A stretch of DNA of 64,000 nt from Bryobacterales bacterium (GTDB lineage Bacteria > Acidobacteriota > Terriglobia > Bryobacterales > Bryobacteraceae), in contig PLDF01000505.1 of NCBI GenBank assembly GCA_003135055.1, positions 18,263 to 82,262 on the forward strand, given 5' to 3'. This document shows, piece by piece, positions 1 to 10,700 of this stretch. Every line of letters begins with the position of its first letter. Position 1 is the first letter of the stretch. The notes under the pieces are model-generated. The model was given only the letters and a program-made list of their open reading frames with translations. It had not been told where the DNA came from and ran no database searches. The position numbers and the translations under genes were made by a program.

Positions 1-539
1 TCTGCGTCCAGACTGCCCACCACGGCGCGACTGCCGATGAAGGGGACGCCATACCGGACACCTTCTTCTTCCGAGAAGCCGATCAACTCGATGGCATACC
101 GCAGCGCACGGGCCGCCAGGTCTTCGAGCAGCGCCACGCCCAATACAACACCCAGGATGCCGTCGAATGCGCCCGCATTGGGAACCGTGTCGAGGTGCGA
201 TCCGATAACGAAAGTAGGGCGGACCCCCTGGTCCGCGGCCGACGACCTCGTCGGCCTCTCCGGGGGCTCCTGGGACTGATTCGGTTGAGGAAGAGCGGGT
301 CCGGGGGGACCCGCGCGGACCAGGGGGTCCGCCCTGCAACTAGTAGCGCGAAGATTGCCCACTGCGTCGATGCGAACCTCGCAGCCGGCCGCGGTGAGCC
401 ATCCGGCGATAAGCGCGTGTACTTCCTTCATCGGCGCGGAAAGGTAAGTGCGCGTGATGCGCCCTGGTTCTTCGGTATAGCCGGCAAGCAGACGGCACCG
501 CTCGACGGCCGTGCGTGCGGCGCTGCTCCATCGACTCAT
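1..539 (-). CDS. Allantoate amidohydrolase / M20-family Zn hydrolase, N-terminal part (truncated by window edge)
   Basis: My translation of the minus strand from ATG at 539: MSRWSSAARTAVERCRLLAGYTEEPGRITRTYLSAPMKEVHALIAGWLTAAGCEVRIDAVGNLRA...PTFVIGSHLDTVPNAGAFDGILGVVLGV; GSHLDTVPNAGxxDG is the M20/AllC metal-site signature; context is a uricase operon. Open to the window edge, so absent from the ORF track. Confidence 0.85.
   Translation of the reverse strand, partial: MSRWSSAARTAVERCRLLAGYTEEPGRITRTYLSAPMKEVHALIAGWLTAAGCEVRIDAVGNLRATSCRADPLVRAGPPGPALPQPNQSQEPPERPTRSSAADQGVRPTFVIGSHLDTVPNAGAFDGILGVVLGVALLEDLAARALRYAIELIGFSEEEGVRYGVPFIGSRAVVGSLDA
216..335. repeat. REPIN-like inverted repeat inside the allantoate amidohydrolase ORF
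   Basis: Arms AGGGCGGACCCCCTGGTCCGCG (216-237) and CGCGGACCAGGGGGTCCGCCCT (314-335) are exact reverse complements; each arm is itself a hairpin (GCGGACC/GGTCCGC); third hairpin GCGGGTC..GACCCGC near 295-314. Confidence 0.85.
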
Positions 540-892
540 TACGAGCCCCTATAGGTGGTGTACCCGTAAGGAGAGAGCAGCAGCGGGACGTGGTAATTGC
601 CGGTCTCTTCGGCGACGCCGAAGCGGATCACTACTTCATCGAGGAACGCCGGGTCGGGGAGTGTCACTCCCTGTTGCCGCAGATATGCGCCCGCCGCGAA
701 AACCAGCTCATAAATGCCGGCTGGAATTCGATCGCCCGAAAGTAGAGGCACGTCCGTGCGCCCGTCGCGATTGGTGACTGCGCTGGCGCAATGTTCGCGG
801 AGGGCGCCGGCGATGCAATAGAGACTCACGGCAACGCCCGCCGCCGGCCGGCCTTGCGATGTGTCCAAAACGTGTGTGGAAAGCCGCGCCAT
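539..892 (-). CDS. 5-hydroxyisourate hydrolase (transthyretin-like)
   Basis: ORF 117 aa: LSTHVLDTSQGRPAAGVAVSLY ... HVPLLLSPYGYTTYRGS, with the TLP family C-terminal YRGS motif; adjacent to uricase. Confidence 0.93.
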   Translation of the reverse strand: MARLSTHVLDTSQGRPAAGVAVSLYCIAGALREHCASAVTNRDGRTDVPLLSGDRIPAGIYELVFAAGAYLRQQGVTLPDPAFLDEVVIRFGVAEETGNYHVPLLLSPYGYTTYRGS

Positions 893-893
893 G

Positions 894-1808
894 TTATCTC
901 CGCAGACTCAAACCCAGACAGCCGTAAGGCGGCCGCGAATCGGTGTAAACGCCCATCAGGTCGCCCTGCTCCACGATGGTATCCCAAGTGCGGTTGTTGG
1001 CTTCGAGGTCAATCTGCGAAATAGTGGGAATGTCTTCCAGCACCCGGCAACCGATCTGGTAGATCACTTCCTGAATGCTGCCCGATTCGAAGGCGGCAAA
1101 GACATCGTGGACGATGCGGCGCACGCTTTTCGCCGCGGCTTCTTGAGATGCAGCCCGATCTTGAGGCGACGCGGCGCCTTGAAATGCAGCGGCGTCTTGA
1201 AATGCAGCCTCGAAGCTGGTGTAACTCCACTCCACGTCCAGCCACATGTGCAGCGGGCGGTTCTTGATATCGGGCAGCGTGGTGTATTGGTCGCGCACGA
1301 AGCCGTGAAAGGCGCTGCCGCCCAGGCGGAGCAGCCGGAAGCCGCGAATTCCCGAGCGCGCTTCCACTATGTTGAGGCCATCGGCGGAACGGCCCATTTC
1401 CACGCGGGCAAAAGCGCGGTCGGGTCCCGCGGGCGCAAATGCCATGTGGCTTTCTGCGACGCCGGAGTACGGAATCTCCGATGCCGAGACTTGCGCGCCG
1501 GCCGTGTGCGGATAAGTGGCGAGAAACTTATCGCAGAGAAAGCGGCAGTAACTTTCCAAGTGGAAGCCCGTGTAATTCAGCGTTTCGCGCTGAATGAAAT
1601 TCTTCATGGAATCGGTAGCCACAAGGTTAGTGTTGTCGCCTGTTGTGTAAGTGGGCCAAAAAGCGTCGCCATACAGCAGCATGATTACATTCGCGCCAAA
1701 TACCGGGCAGCAGCCTTCGGGGACAGCGCCGCCCCGGTGTAGACGGTAGACAGTGACATCGCCTTTTCCGTAGTAGTTACGCTTCCAACCGCTGGCAAAT
1801 CGTTCCAC
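894..1808 (-). CDS. Urate oxidase (uricase)
   Basis: 304 aa ORF with uricase motifs (YGKGDVTVYRLHR, DNTNLVATDSMKNF, ADGLNIVEARSGIRGFRLLRLGGSAFHGFVRDQYTTLPDIKNRPLHMWLDVEW, NRTWDTIVEQ). Confidence 0.95.
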   Translation of the reverse strand: MERFASGWKRNYYGKGDVTVYRLHRGGAVPEGCCPVFGANVIMLLYGDAFWPTYTTGDNTNLVATDSMKNFIQRETLNYTGFHLESYCRFLCDKFLATYPHTAGAQVSASEIPYSGVAESHMAFAPAGPDRAFARVEMGRSADGLNIVEARSGIRGFRLLRLGGSAFHGFVRDQYTTLPDIKNRPLHMWLDVEWSYTSFEAAFQDAAAFQGAASPQDRAASQEAAAKSVRRIVHDVFAAFESGSIQEVIYQIGCRVLEDIPTISQIDLEANNRTWDTIVEQGDLMGVYTDSRPPYGCLGLSLRR

Positions 1809-2010: not shown

Positions 2011-2538
2011 TTAAGTACTCCCAAGCATCTGCTCTTCTAACCGAAGCTCTTCCAATCGAAACCAGGCGATGCGGTAGACCTGTTCCAGCGCTTCACGCAA
2101 CTCACTCTCCGGCGTGGCCTCGATCCGCCGGCGCAGCGCCTCGATGATATCGCGATTGCCGCTGCCTTTTACCGCGAACAAGAAGGGGAATCCGAAGCGC
2201 TCCCGGTATTCGTTGTTCAACGCCAGGAGCGAACCGTGTTCTTCCGGCGTAAGCTGGTTCAACCCCGCGCCGGCTTGTTCGCGAGTGGATGCTTCGCTCA
2301 TCCGCACCCGGTTGCCAAGGTCGGGATGCGCGCGCAGCAGCGCCAATTGGCGCTCCGTCCCGGCGTCTTCCACCTGTTGGCGCATCGCATGGTGTAACTC
2401 GCCGAGTGAAGCGAAAGGCCGCGAACTCCATGCCCGTTCGGCGACCCACGGCGAGTCTTCAAGCACCCAGCCGAAGGCTTTAACAAAGTCCTCGCGAGTG
2501 AGAGCATTGATCTGTTGCAAAGTCATGTGCCGGGTCAT
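2011..2538 (-). CDS. 2-oxo-4-hydroxy-4-carboxy-5-ureidoimidazoline (OHCU) decarboxylase
   Basis: MTRHMTLQQINALTREDFVKAFGWVLEDSPWVAERAW...LLRAHPDLGNR...GLNQLTPEEHGSLLALNNEYRERFGFPFLFAVKG; start chosen at the ATGA overlap with the upstream gene rather than at 2586. Confidence 0.93.
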   Translation of the reverse strand: MTRHMTLQQINALTREDFVKAFGWVLEDSPWVAERAWSSRPFASLGELHHAMRQQVEDAGTERQLALLRAHPDLGNRVRMSEASTREQAGAGLNQLTPEEHGSLLALNNEYRERFGFPFLFAVKGSGNRDIIEALRRRIEATPESELREALEQVYRIAWFRLEELRLEEQMLGST

Positions 2539-3824
2539 GCGGCTTGGAACACCGGGTTTCCCTCTACACAAGTCTCCTCGATACACTCAGTTCCGGCCAA
2601 GGTGAAGATGGCGCCCAGCAGGCGTTCGGGAGATATCGGGCTCCGCATCACTGCCCTCAAGGGACTGGTTTCCGGCGGACGCAAATAGACGAAGTCGGCG
2701 AATTTGCCCACGGTGAAATCGCCGATTTGATCCTCAAGGCCCAGAGCGTCCGCCCCAGCGCGCGTCGCCAGGTAGAGAAGGTGCGCGGCATTGAGCGTCA
2801 CCGGGCTGGGCGCGAGGCGTTGCGTCAGGTAGGCCAGCAATCCCTCCTTCAACATTCCGAATCCCGTGCCGCCGCCGACATCGGTACCTAGCGCGAAGCG
2901 CACGCCCGCCTGCACATGCCGTTGCAATGGAAAGAAGCCGCTGCCTAACGCCGCATTGCTGGCGGGACAGAATGCTACGGCGCTGTCGCACGCGGCGAGC
3001 CGCTCCAATTCGCCCGGCGCGGGATGAACATTGTGCGCGAAAACCGAACGCCGCTGCGCCAGCCCGAAGCGCTCATACACCGCCAGATAGTCGCTCGCGC
3101 CCGGAAACAGACTGGCAACCGATTCGATCTCCTCCACGCTCTCGTTCATGTGAGTTTGAAAACGCACGCCGGGGTTTTCGGCAAGCAGCGTCGCGCAAAC
3201 TTCCAGAATAGCTTCCGACGCGGAGAGCGCGAACCGCGGCGTCACCGCGTACAGCAACCGGCCCGCGCCATGAAAGCGCCGAATCAACGCCGCGCTTTCC
3301 TTATAGGCTTCCTCGGGGGTTTGGTACAACGCCGGCAATAGATGCCTGTCGGCCAGCACCAATCCGCTGACGATCCGCAAGCCCGACGCTTGCGCCTGTT
3401 CAAATAACTCGGCGGTGGCGCCGGCGAAGTGAGCGCCGAAGACCAGCGCGGCGGTGGTTCCATGCGATGCGAGTGAGTGCAGAAACTCCTGCGCCACCGC
3501 TCTGGCGTAAGAGGGATGCCCGAACTTCACCTCCTCCGGAAGCGTGATATTTTCCAGCCAATCGAGCAGCGAGTATCCAATGCCGCCCAGCGCACGCACC
3601 TGCGGATAGTGAATGTGCGCGTCGACGAACCCCGGCAATAGCACGCCATCGCGCATGTCGCGGACGTCTGCCTCGGGATACTGCGCGCGCACTTCCAGAT
3701 AATCTCCGCACGCCGCGACTCTGCCATTTTCCACCAGTAAGGCGCCGTCCGGGAAAACTTCAAGCGCATCGTCGTCCCGGAACGGATTGCGCGGTGTGTG
3801 AAAAATGGCGGCGCGCAGAATCAT
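2535..3824 (-). CDS. guaD: Guanine deaminase (amidohydrolase family)
   Basis: 429 aa; PGFVDAHIHYPQ, HMNES, FCPASNAALGSGFF, ALGTDVGGGTGFGML motifs. Confidence 0.92.
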   Translation of the reverse strand: MILRAAIFHTPRNPFRDDDALEVFPDGALLVENGRVAACGDYLEVRAQYPEADVRDMRDGVLLPGFVDAHIHYPQVRALGGIGYSLLDWLENITLPEEVKFGHPSYARAVAQEFLHSLASHGTTAALVFGAHFAGATAELFEQAQASGLRIVSGLVLADRHLLPALYQTPEEAYKESAALIRRFHGAGRLLYAVTPRFALSASEAILEVCATLLAENPGVRFQTHMNESVEEIESVASLFPGASDYLAVYERFGLAQRRSVFAHNVHPAPGELERLAACDSAVAFCPASNAALGSGFFPLQRHVQAGVRFALGTDVGGGTGFGMLKEGLLAYLTQRLAPSPVTLNAAHLLYLATRAGADALGLEDQIGDFTVGKFADFVYLRPPETSPLRAVMRSPISPERLLGAIFTLAGTECIEETCVEGNPVFQAA

Positions 3825-6208
3825 ATGCGGATCGCTTCAGCGGCCGCTTCAACGGTCTCCGCTTCAGCGGCCGGCTCGGCGACCGCTTCCGGGGCTGGCT
3901 CGGCGATCTCCGCCTGCGCCGACCGCGCGCGCTGAATCGCCCAATACACGCGTTCAGGCGTCGCCGGGCTGTCGAGTTCCACGATGCCGCCAGTGCCGAG
4001 CGACGCCCCAAACGCCGATATGGCATCGCGAATCGCCTCCCGCACTGAGATGGCCAGCATCAACGGCGGCTCGCCCACGGCCTTGCTGCCGAAGATCACG
4101 CCCGGCTCCGCCGCGCGCTCCAGAAACGCCACGCGGAAATCTTCCGGCAATTCCGACCACGAAGGCAGCTTATAGGTGGACGCGCTATTGGTGGCCACGC
4201 GGCCTTCGGGAGTCCACAGTAGCTCCTCCATCACCAGCCAGCCGAGGCCTTGCAGGAAGCCGCCTTCGATCTGGCCGCGGTCGATGATGGGCGAAAGCGA
4301 GCTGCCCACGTCTTCCAGAATATCGACGCGCCGGACACGGCAATCGCCCGTGAAACCGTCCAGCTCCACTTCCGAGACGGCCGCGCCGTAAGCGAAATAA
4401 TGGAACGGCCTCCCCAGGCCGGTCTTCGGGTCGTAACTGATGCCGGGCGTGCGGTAATAGCCCTGCGCGAAGAGCGCGACTCTCTGCCGGTAAGCGGCCT
4501 CCACTACTTCCACGAAGGTCATGCCGGCCGCGCCATCGCAAGAGACCATCCCATCCGCGAAGCGTACCTGCCCGGCGGCGCAGCCCATCTGCTCAGCGGC
4601 CACCTCTGCAAGCCTGCTCTTCAATTGCTCGCACGCATCCGCCACCGCCGCGCCGTTCAGATCCGCGCCAGCCGAAGCAGCCGTCGCCGACGTGTTGGGC
4701 ACCTTATCGGTGCGCGTCGGCATCGTGCGAATCGAGGCCAAGGGCACCCCCAGACTTTGCGCCGCCACCTGGCCGATCTTCGTGTACAGGCCCTGCCCCA
4801 TTTCAGTGCCGCCGTGATTCACCTGCACGCTGCCGTCGCGATAAATCAGCACCAAAGCGCCGGCCTGATTGAAGAACGTCGCGGTGAAAGAGATGCCGAA
4901 CTTCACCGGCGTGATGGCGATTCCGCGCTTGTAATGTTCGTTCCGCAAATTGTGCGCGTGGATTTCTTCGCGCCGCGCGGCGAACGAACTAGTGGCCTTG
5001 AGCTCTTCCCAGATGCGCGTGATGCGCCCCGCGTCTTTCACTTCCATGCCGTAGTGAGTGCGATCGCCGGCGCGGTAGAAGTTGCGCTCGCGCACGGCCT
5101 CTGGCGTCATCCCCAGCGATCGCGCGATGCGGTCGAGCGCGTCTTCGATCACTAGCATCCCTTGCGGTCCGCCGAATCCGCGAAAGGCGGTCTGGGACGT
5201 CTTGTGCGTGCGGCACACGTAGCCCGTCACGTCGGCGGTGGGCAGCAGATACGCGTTGTCCACATGGAAAATGGCCCGCCACAAAACCGGCTCGGAAAGA
5301 TCGAGACTCCAGCCGCCGTCGGAATACAGTTGCAGGTCGAGCCCCAGCAATCGGCCCGTCTCATCGTGGCCAACGGCGTATCGCGCATAGAATGGATGGC
5401 GTTTGCCGGTGAGCACCATATCGAGCGCGCGCGGCAGCCACACGCGCACGGGCCGGCGCGTCTTCCATGCGCCCAGCGCGGCGATGGCGGCCCACGGGTT
5501 AGCCTGCACTTCCTTGCCGCCGAAGGCGCCGCCCATGCGCAGGCACTCCACCGTTACGCGGTTTTCCGCAATTCCTAAAACCCGCGCCACAATCACCTGC
5601 GTCTCGGTGGGATGCTGCGTCGAAGAGTGCAGCGAGACGCCGCCGGATTCGTCCAGCCACGCAATGGCGCTTTGCGTTTCCAGATAGAAATGCTCCTGAC
5701 CGCCGATGTACAGCTCGCCACGCACGCAGCGCGGACTCGCGGCGATTGCGGCCACGGCATCGCCACGCCGCAGGTGCGCGGGATCCGAATGGAAGCTCCG
5801 CTGCTCGATGGCCTGCTGCATGGTGACGATGGCCGGCAGAGCTTCGTACCGCACTTCCACAAGGCCGGCGGCGCTCTTCGCCGCGCCGAGGTTTTCCGCC
5901 AACACCCAGGCAACCGGCTGCTGGTGATACAAAACTTCGGTGGGAAACAGCGGCTCATCGCGCCGGCTCGAGCCCGAATCGCCTTCTCCGGGTACGTCCT
6001 CGCCAGTCAGTACCGCAACCACCGCGTCATGCTTCAACGCCGCGGACGCGTCCAGAGCCAGCACCTTCGCGTGCGCATGCGGCACCATCACCGGCCACGC
6101 GTGCAACAAGCCGTGGAAGCGCGTCACCAGATCGTCGGTGTACAAAGCCGAGCCCGTGACGTGCCCTTCGGCGCTCTCATGCGGCAGCGGTTTCCCAGCG
6201 ATATTCAT
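3821..6208 (-). CDS. xdhB: Xanthine dehydrogenase, molybdopterin-binding subunit
   Basis: 795 aa; GQEHFYLETQ, GGAFGGKE, RGFGGPQG, NHGGTEMGQGLYTKIGQVAA, GSKAVGEPPLMLAISVREAIRDA motifs; Ala/Glu-rich C-terminal tail. Confidence 0.94.
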   Translation of the reverse strand: MNIAGKPLPHESAEGHVTGSALYTDDLVTRFHGLLHAWPVMVPHAHAKVLALDASAALKHDAVVAVLTGEDVPGEGDSGSSRRDEPLFPTEVLYHQQPVAWVLAENLGAAKSAAGLVEVRYEALPAIVTMQQAIEQRSFHSDPAHLRRGDAVAAIAASPRCVRGELYIGGQEHFYLETQSAIAWLDESGGVSLHSSTQHPTETQVIVARVLGIAENRVTVECLRMGGAFGGKEVQANPWAAIAALGAWKTRRPVRVWLPRALDMVLTGKRHPFYARYAVGHDETGRLLGLDLQLYSDGGWSLDLSEPVLWRAIFHVDNAYLLPTADVTGYVCRTHKTSQTAFRGFGGPQGMLVIEDALDRIARSLGMTPEAVRERNFYRAGDRTHYGMEVKDAGRITRIWEELKATSSFAARREEIHAHNLRNEHYKRGIAITPVKFGISFTATFFNQAGALVLIYRDGSVQVNHGGTEMGQGLYTKIGQVAAQSLGVPLASIRTMPTRTDKVPNTSATAASAGADLNGAAVADACEQLKSRLAEVAAEQMGCAAGQVRFADGMVSCDGAAGMTFVEVVEAAYRQRVALFAQGYYRTPGISYDPKTGLGRPFHYFAYGAAVSEVELDGFTGDCRVRRVDILEDVGSSLSPIIDRGQIEGGFLQGLGWLVMEELLWTPEGRVATNSASTYKLPSWSELPEDFRVAFLERAAEPGVIFGSKAVGEPPLMLAISVREAIRDAISAFGASLGTGGIVELDSPATPERVYWAIQRARSAQAEIAEPAPEAVAEPAAEAETVEAAAEAIRI

Positions 6209-7762: not shown

Positions 7763-10700
7763 ATGCAGAACTCCATTCTTGTGGGGCAGGCAATCCTGCC
7801 TGCAGCCGCCTTTCAGGCGGCTTTTTCGGAGCACACACGACCCCTCGCACCCTCCCAGCGCCGGCTGAAAGCCGGCGGCAGCCAGAATTGGCTGCCCCAC
7901 AAGCTCGCGCTAACCATATTCCTGTTAGCAGTCGCGTCCCCAACCTTCGCCCAAGTCTCGGCCGCCGTTTCGGGGACGGTCACGGACCAATCCGGCGCCA
8001 CCATCGCGGCAGCCTCGGTGACGGCGAAGAACGCGGACACCGGCGCAATCCGAACGACTGTTACCGGCGCCGCAGGCCGCTATCGACTGTTCTCCCTGCC
8101 GGTGGGCGAGTATGAGATCCGCGTCCAAAAACCGGGATTCACGGAAAAGATCCGCAAGGGCGTCCACCTGACAGTGGGACAGGATGCCGCGGTGGATGTG
8201 AGCCTCGAGGTGGGAGATGTGAGCCAGCAGGTGGTGGTGAATGCCGATGCGTCGCCGGTGAGCGTCACCGAAACCGGCGCATCCGGCCTCGTCGGCGAGC
8301 GCCAGGTGAAAGATCTTCCGCTCAACGGGCGAAGTTACGATGAGCTGCTCACTCTCAATCCCGGAGTGATCAATTTCACTTGGGAGAAAACCGGCGGCGT
8401 TGGCGTATCAAATTCCACTTCGGGTAATAACTTCGTAGTGTCGGGGAACCGGCCGCAGCAGAATCTGTTCCTGCTGAACGGCGTCGAGTTCACCGGTGCG
8501 GCCGAGAATAACATGCAGCCGGGAGGAGTTAGTCAGGAACTGCTTGGCGTCGACGCCGTGCGCGAGTTTAATCTGTTGAGTGACTCCTATGGCGCCGAGT
8601 ACGGCAAGCGGCCGGCGGCGCAGGTTCTGATCGTGACGCAGCAAGGAACCAACCAGCTTCACGGAGCGCTCTTCGAGTTCCTGCGAAACAACGATTTGAA
8701 TGCCCGCAATTTCTATGACCCGAATGCCCCTCCAGGGTTTCAGCGCAATCAGTTTGGAGGCTCTTTAGGCGGCCCGGTCCGCAAAAATAAGACATTCGTA
8801 TTCGCCAATTACGAATCGTTCCACCAGCATCTGCACCAGACCGGTGTGGACCTGGTGCCCGACGCGAACGCGCGCAACGGATTGCTGCCGTGCGCATTGG
8901 TCAGCCCCGCGCCGAACCCCTGCCCGTCGACCGGACTGGCGTTGGTCGGTGTCTCGCCGCTGATTTCGCTGTGGCCGGCTCCAAGCCCCGGCGCTCCCGA
9001 TTTCGGCGGGATTGCCGAAGCCTTCAACACCCCGCTGCAAACCCTCCGCGACGACTTTGGGAACACCCGGCTTGACCACAACTTCTCCGAAAAGGACTCT
9101 CTGAGCGGGGTCTACACCATCGACGACAGCGCGGGTTTTACCCCGACCAGCACCAATATGTACAGCACTGACGTGGAGAGTCTCAGGGAACAGGTTGCGA
9201 GCATCGAAGAGACTCATGTCTTTTCCCCCACCCTGCTCAACACGGCGCGGCTCGGCTATTCGCGCGCGGGGTATTTCTTTACCGGCGAGCCAACGCCGGG
9301 CACTCCAGCCGCATCGCTTCCGGGCTTCTTGACGGGAGACCCGATAGGCGCAGCCGTGGTCGGCGGCAGCGCGGCATCGAATCCTACAGCCCAGATAAGC
9401 CTCGCGGGCAGTAACAATGGAAGCAATCTGCGCGTTGCCCGGAATCTGTTCACGTATGAAGATCGAGTCTCTTTCACGCGCGGGCGCCATCAGTTCACGC
9501 TAGGCGCGTGGTTCCAGCGGTTGCGTTCGAATGAGCTCCTGGCGCTTAGCCAATACGGGCAAGCCACCTTCACCAGCTTGCAGACTTTCCTGCAGGGAAC
9601 CGTGGCAACTCTACTTTACGATCCGGCGCCTACCGAAATGAACTGGCGCTCCTGGTTCGGCGCGTTTTATGCCGAAGACGCCATCCGGCTGAGTTCCGGA
9701 TTCACCTTGTCGCTGGGCTTCCGCGACGAATTCACCACCGGGTGGAATGAGGCGCATGACCGGGCGGCTAACTATACCTACCCCAACGGCGTGATTTCCA
9801 GTCAGCCGACTGTCGGGTCTTCGGAATTCACTGTCAATCGCGGAAGGTTTCTGCCGCAGCCGCGCATTGGCATGGCGTGGAGCCCATCCGGCGGCGCGGC
9901 CAAGACTATCGTCCGTGCAGGCTTCGGCATGTATAACGATCTTCAAGACGCCTTGGGCTACCGCACAGACCAGAATGCGCCGTTCAATCCGACTTACAGT
10001 TTCCCGAGCGTACCGGTCTCCCAATTGCCGGTCTTACCAGGAGCTTCCGTGCCTTCTACAGCGAAGTTAGTGCCCGGAGGGGTTCAACCGGATTTGTACA
10101 CTCCGACGCTGATTTCCTGGTCGATCCGAGTGGAGCGGGAACTGACAGCCAATACGACTCTCACTGCCGGATACGTCGGGTCTCACGGATATCATGAGAT
10201 CATCGGCATCGACGCTAACGAGCCCTTTCCCGTGATATGCCCCGCGGCGCCATGCCCGGCTAACTACCCGAGTAACTTCCCGGCCGCTTTCGCTAACACG
10301 CCTGTCCCCGCCGGAACTTACTATGTCCCATCCGCAACCAAGCCCAATGCCGCAATCGCTAACACATGGACCTATTTCTCCGAGGGCGACAGCTCTTACA
10401 ACGCGCTCCAGGTAGACATGCAGCATCGCTTCAGCGGCGGTCTGGCTGTGCGAGGCGTTTACACCTGGTCGAAAACCATCGACGACGGAGATTCCGTGAA
10501 CGCTACAACCTCGGGGGGCGAGCCGGCGCTGGCGTCGAATCCATTCAATCTACGCTCCGATCGGGGGCTGGCGAACTTCGATGTCCGCAACGTGGCGGCA
10601 ATCAACGAAACCTATGCGCTGCCCTTCGGCAAGGGAAAGCCTTTTCTGCATGATGCCGGCGGCGCCATGAATGCGTTGGCGAGCGGCTGGATAGTGAGTT

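Follow-up and report, generated by a model that had tools for sequence, protein, structure and literature searches.

The allC gene of a Bryobacterales soil bacterium, which encodes an allantoate amidohydrolase, carries within its coding sequence a REPIN, a palindromic element of a mobile repeat family of the same genome. In the reading that we favour, with a probability of roughly 0.82, a RAYT-type REPIN would have entered a turn between two beta strands of AllC, ahead of the GSHLD motif that binds metal, and would have taken the place of part of a loop whose length varies in orthologs. The frame would have stayed open because a GC-rich palindrome is poor in stop codons and because the net length change was a multiple of three, and the insertion would have been kept since AllC, carrying a disordered, tolerated loop of 41 residues, most likely still folds as usual.

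The window, meaning here the whole analysed stretch of 64,000 nucleotides, covers positions 18263-82262 of contig C456 in a draft genome of 10.7 Mb (G000). At its edge, allC belongs to a group of purine-degradation genes (Table 1). The ORF continues across the edge to a normal end and comprises 440 codons; the first-pass annotation had considered that it might be broken there, and it is complete. Its product scores 486 bits against the NCBIfam allantoate amidohydrolase model NF006775 (cutoff 479). The next gene of the cluster is the allantoinase gene allB. At ortholog-level similarity allC is the sole copy in the genome, the next members of the superfamily being 37-39% identical.

Table 1. Purine-degradation genes and outer arms of the REPIN in the window
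Feature	Position	Strand	Remark
allC, allantoate amidohydrolase, N-terminal part	1..539	-	remainder beyond the window (G000:C456, L009:5480-6802)
Hydroxyisourate hydrolase	539..892	-	TIGR02962 over cutoff; purine-degradation cluster
Urate oxidase	894..1808	-	TIGR03383 over cutoff; purine-degradation cluster
OHCU decarboxylase	2011..2586	-	TIGR03164 over cutoff; purine-degradation cluster
Guanine deaminase	2535..3824	-	TIGR02967 over cutoff; purine-degradation cluster
Xanthine dehydrogenase molybdopterin-binding subunit	3821..6208	-	TIGR02965 over cutoff; purine-degradation cluster
Outer REP arm GTAGGGCGGACCCCCTGGTCCGC	214..236	+	codes for the end of the insert (minus strand, AADQGVRPT)
Outer REP arm GCAGGGCGGACCCCCTGGTCCGC (on the minus strand)	315..337	-	first codons of the insert, CRADPLVR

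The element measures 124 bp (214-337), its GTAG-type tags included. The double hairpin described in the first-pass annotation stands, and its extent, given there as 120 bp at 216-335, is widened to these limits. Two REPs lie in inverted orientation; the terminal 23-nt arms match as inverted repeats at 22 of 23 positions, and each outer arm consists of a GTAG-type tag followed by a hairpin GCGGACC...GGTCCGC. One tag, in the arm that encodes the first codons of the insert, is mutated to GCAG, and the other arm keeps GTAG; on the coding strand this change would turn TGT into TGC, which is synonymous. Folded as DNA, the REPIN region reaches -54 kcal/mol (z -6.4 against shuffled sequence), and as RNA the element reaches -91 kcal/mol (z -7.7), beating 200 of 200 shuffles. 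A plasmid similarity search with the element returned no match.

The core of this family (family 1), GCGGACCAGGGGGTCCGC, occurs at 133 sites in the 10.7-Mb genome with up to two mismatches, against 3 for a reversed control. Dozens of family-1 cores form inverted pairs, mostly about 116-137 bp long, and most of the other copies carry a GTAG or GTGG tag. Related cores were found in 12 of the 61 genomes searched (G000 counted), and are abundant in G036 and G020. Family-1 REPs flank L012, one of six Y1-type transposase genes, on either side, an arrangement known for RAYTs. L012 lies above the Pfam cutoff for Y1_Tnp (33 vs 23 bits) and under that for REP_Tyr_transpos (59 bits, cutoff 80), and its reading frame terminates within REP sequence (AADQGVRPTL). 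Because of the high copy number, the GTAG tags and the REP-flanked RAYT, the element in allC is a REPIN of a mobile family, as the first-pass annotation had proposed. GTAG-tagged REPs are recognised by TnpA-REP enzymes, with cleavage at nearby CT dinucleotides (PMC8266576); if the same mechanism applies here, family 1 would be mobilised by the L012 RAYT. Two further RAYT-like genes, L014 and L015, are each flanked by distinct REP hairpins, which suggests that the genome holds several REP-transposase pairs.

Read on the minus strand, the element contains no stop and spans codons 68-109 of allC, starting at position 2 of codon 68 and ending at position 2 of codon 109. It contributes 41 residues, including the peptides ADPLVR and AGPPGPALPQPNQSQEPPER; both the stop-free read-through and the peptide quoted in the first pass proved correct, and from the open frame we infer that the insert is translated. 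The length of the element leaves a remainder of one base after division by three, and simple addition of 124 bp would have thrown the downstream codons out of frame; some bases of the host gene must therefore have been deleted or added as well. In nine close orthologs, NLRG is followed by a short variable stretch and then by the IGSHLDTV motif, and all nine lack the insert. The span from GN to SHLD is 57 residues here and 20-31 in 88 orthologs, which come from Acidobacteriota, Meiothermus and other taxa and all lack the insert. Alignment and loop lengths thus agree with the earlier claim of an in-frame insertion into a variable loop, and the residues of the insert, whose presence in homologs would have spoken against that claim, are not shared by these orthologs. 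Without the element the loop would retain about 16 residues, below every ortholog, and part of the original loop therefore seems to have been replaced.

AllC keeps 112 of the 116 columns that are invariant in the nine close orthologs; the best ortholog is about 57% identical over its length, and identity rises to 63-65% after the insert. All 63 invariant columns of a 58-sequence alignment are present, including H115, D126, E158, E159, H215 and H410, the putative metal-site and catalytic residues of this M20-family enzyme. An AlphaFold2 model built with the 58 sequences has a mean pLDDT of 91, with most of the core above 90, and block means of 52-55 across the bulk of the insert, which is bracketed by strands at 63-67 and 109-115. 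The predicted fold agrees with that of E. coli allantoate amidohydrolase (1z2l, 2imo; TM about 0.82-0.91), a member of the same family that is 29% identical to AllC and lacks the insert. The loop is predicted to be surface-exposed, and the simplest and most likely reading of the model is that it is disordered and tolerated. AllC would probably retain its activity.

An alternative, which we consider improbable, is that the insertion is recent and the gene is decaying, with a frame that is open by luck and an enzyme that is impaired or dead, too early for stops to have accumulated. The near-perfect match of the outer arms fits a young insertion, the codon-usage score of the insert is non-coding-like (-0.14, vs 0.32 downstream), and so stable an RNA hairpin could slow ribosomes. 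However, 440 codons have remained without frameshift or stop and the conserved residues are kept, the other genes of the cluster are intact, allC and allB overlap at stop and start (ATGCCTGA), and the insertion site is a loop tolerant of length changes. Because the orthologs include no close relative with an empty site (best about 57%), long tolerance and a very recent event in a now-dispensable gene would look alike. If tolerated, as we favour, the insertion would make allC a clean natural experiment on how a folded enzyme accommodates selfish DNA, as the gene has a single copy in a pathway that is intact apart from it, the mobile element is defined, and numerous orthologs lack the interruption.

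The case in allC has counterparts. In the same genome, family-1 REPs lie in frame in a membrane protein (L030) and in a DltB-like acyltransferase (L093), at places where the loop of the orthologs is shorter. The neighbouring allB, outside the window, holds a single REP of a second family (GTAGGACAGGCCTCCTGGCCTGTC; L009:5421-5500, minus strand), which has 178 sites in G000 with up to three mismatches; it is in frame and supplies eight codons (VGQASWPV), a net gain of about 6 residues over the aligned orthologs, which lack the REP. Among relatives, in-frame family-1 REPs occur in the same loop of DnaE2 in two genera (L216, L218; G036, G020) and in the central loop of an MFS transporter of G020, cases that form a biased sample as they were found through the peptide of the AllC insert. 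By codon usage, roughly a quarter of family-1 sites have coding-like flanks on both sides, on one strand and mostly in the same frame, a rough estimate from a partial census of 55 distinct sites. A broader reading, tentative and on balance doubtful, is that REPs of several families are recurrent in-frame insertions in this acidobacterial family, in variable loops of working enzymes such as AllC and AllB, DnaE2, the DltB-like protein and the transporter. If so, REPs would go on creating variation in the length of proteins and would not be purely extragenic parasites. The interest lies in the recurrence, not least in two neighbouring enzymes of a single pathway. Genomes from this family would probably be good material for gauging how often repeats become protein.

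This recurrence could also be taken to mean that the AllC loop has been domesticated and is useful, as an interaction surface or for regulation or stability. We regard that as very improbable: REP-derived peptides in one DnaE2 loop of two genera and in the adjoining AllC and AllB would fit it, but the AllC loop is modelled at low confidence and is probably disordered, its insert occurs in no ortholog, the other inserts lie in unrelated proteins and vary in frame and family, and coincidences are likely at such copy numbers. No evidence of usefulness was seen, and we infer that the insert is neutral rather than beneficial. An assembly artefact, with two palindromic copies misjoined inside allC, is hardly credible: such palindromes are hard for assemblers, the draft comprises 515 contigs with 9.3% contamination, and several other REPIN copies contain runs of N, but the allC copy has no N and lies on an 89-kb contig with its frame exactly kept, both flanks align with AllC orthologs, and the search for a donor copy gave no near-identical sequence, the next best being 86%.

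Intragenic GTAG REPs are described from ORFs of many bacteria, with DnaE2 among the targets and encoded stretches of 20-82 residues (Di Nocera et al. 2013, PMC3733652). As in the present case, these are REPs and dimers in the ORFs of unrelated genes, and the RAYTs are REP-flanked; among the phyla with GTAG families Acidobacteria are not listed, whereas acidobacterial tyrosine transposases are named. When the literature was searched for intragenic REPs in Acidobacteria, this paper alone came up. In-frame intragenic REPs are thus already published, and the AllC case, as far as we found, is new to Acidobacteria and extends intragenic GTAG REPs to that phylum. The palindromic elements of Rickettsia, the classical parallel (reviewed in PMC10969869), are likewise mobile palindromes translated in frame in metabolic genes and apparently tolerated in folded proteins, but RPE-4 and RPE-6 are CGTC-tagged and have no dedicated transposase (PMC3733652), whereas the AllC element has a GTAG tag and a RAYT. 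The REPINs of Pseudomonas fluorescens SBW25 (Bertels and Rainey 2011, PMC3116915) resemble it as paired inverted REPs that replicate, in many copies and with a RAYT; they were defined from extragenic space, in contrast to a copy within a coding gene.

Several candidates were set aside. Most long open frames over REPINs had no family match or a negative codon score, or had the REPIN upstream of the gene start. A single fixed translation frame (that of ADPLVR) was dropped, since the search that yielded the cases in relatives had used that peptide and an ImuB-like and a GltD-like gene differ in frame. The GltD-like (glutamate-synthase-small-subunit-like) gene (L091, G000:C89) is interrupted by a REP with N, which leaves its frame undecided, and was no longer counted as broken. 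The ImuB-like gene (L236:1-1413, G000:C159), upstream of dnaE2, seems to contain a REP in frame close to the C-terminal end and is likely a further case. The DnaE2 loop also carries unrelated insertions in G072 and G035. Within the window, a REPIN-like element (GTGGGGCAGG...GGCCGCCCCAC, 1827-1947) lies between the genes for urate oxidase and OHCU decarboxylase. In the open frame of a TonB-receptor-like protein, a REP of a third family (GTGGGGCAGG...CTGCCCCAC, 7781-7903) precedes the signal peptide. This REP may supply the N-terminal part of the peptide, or else translation may start downstream of it.
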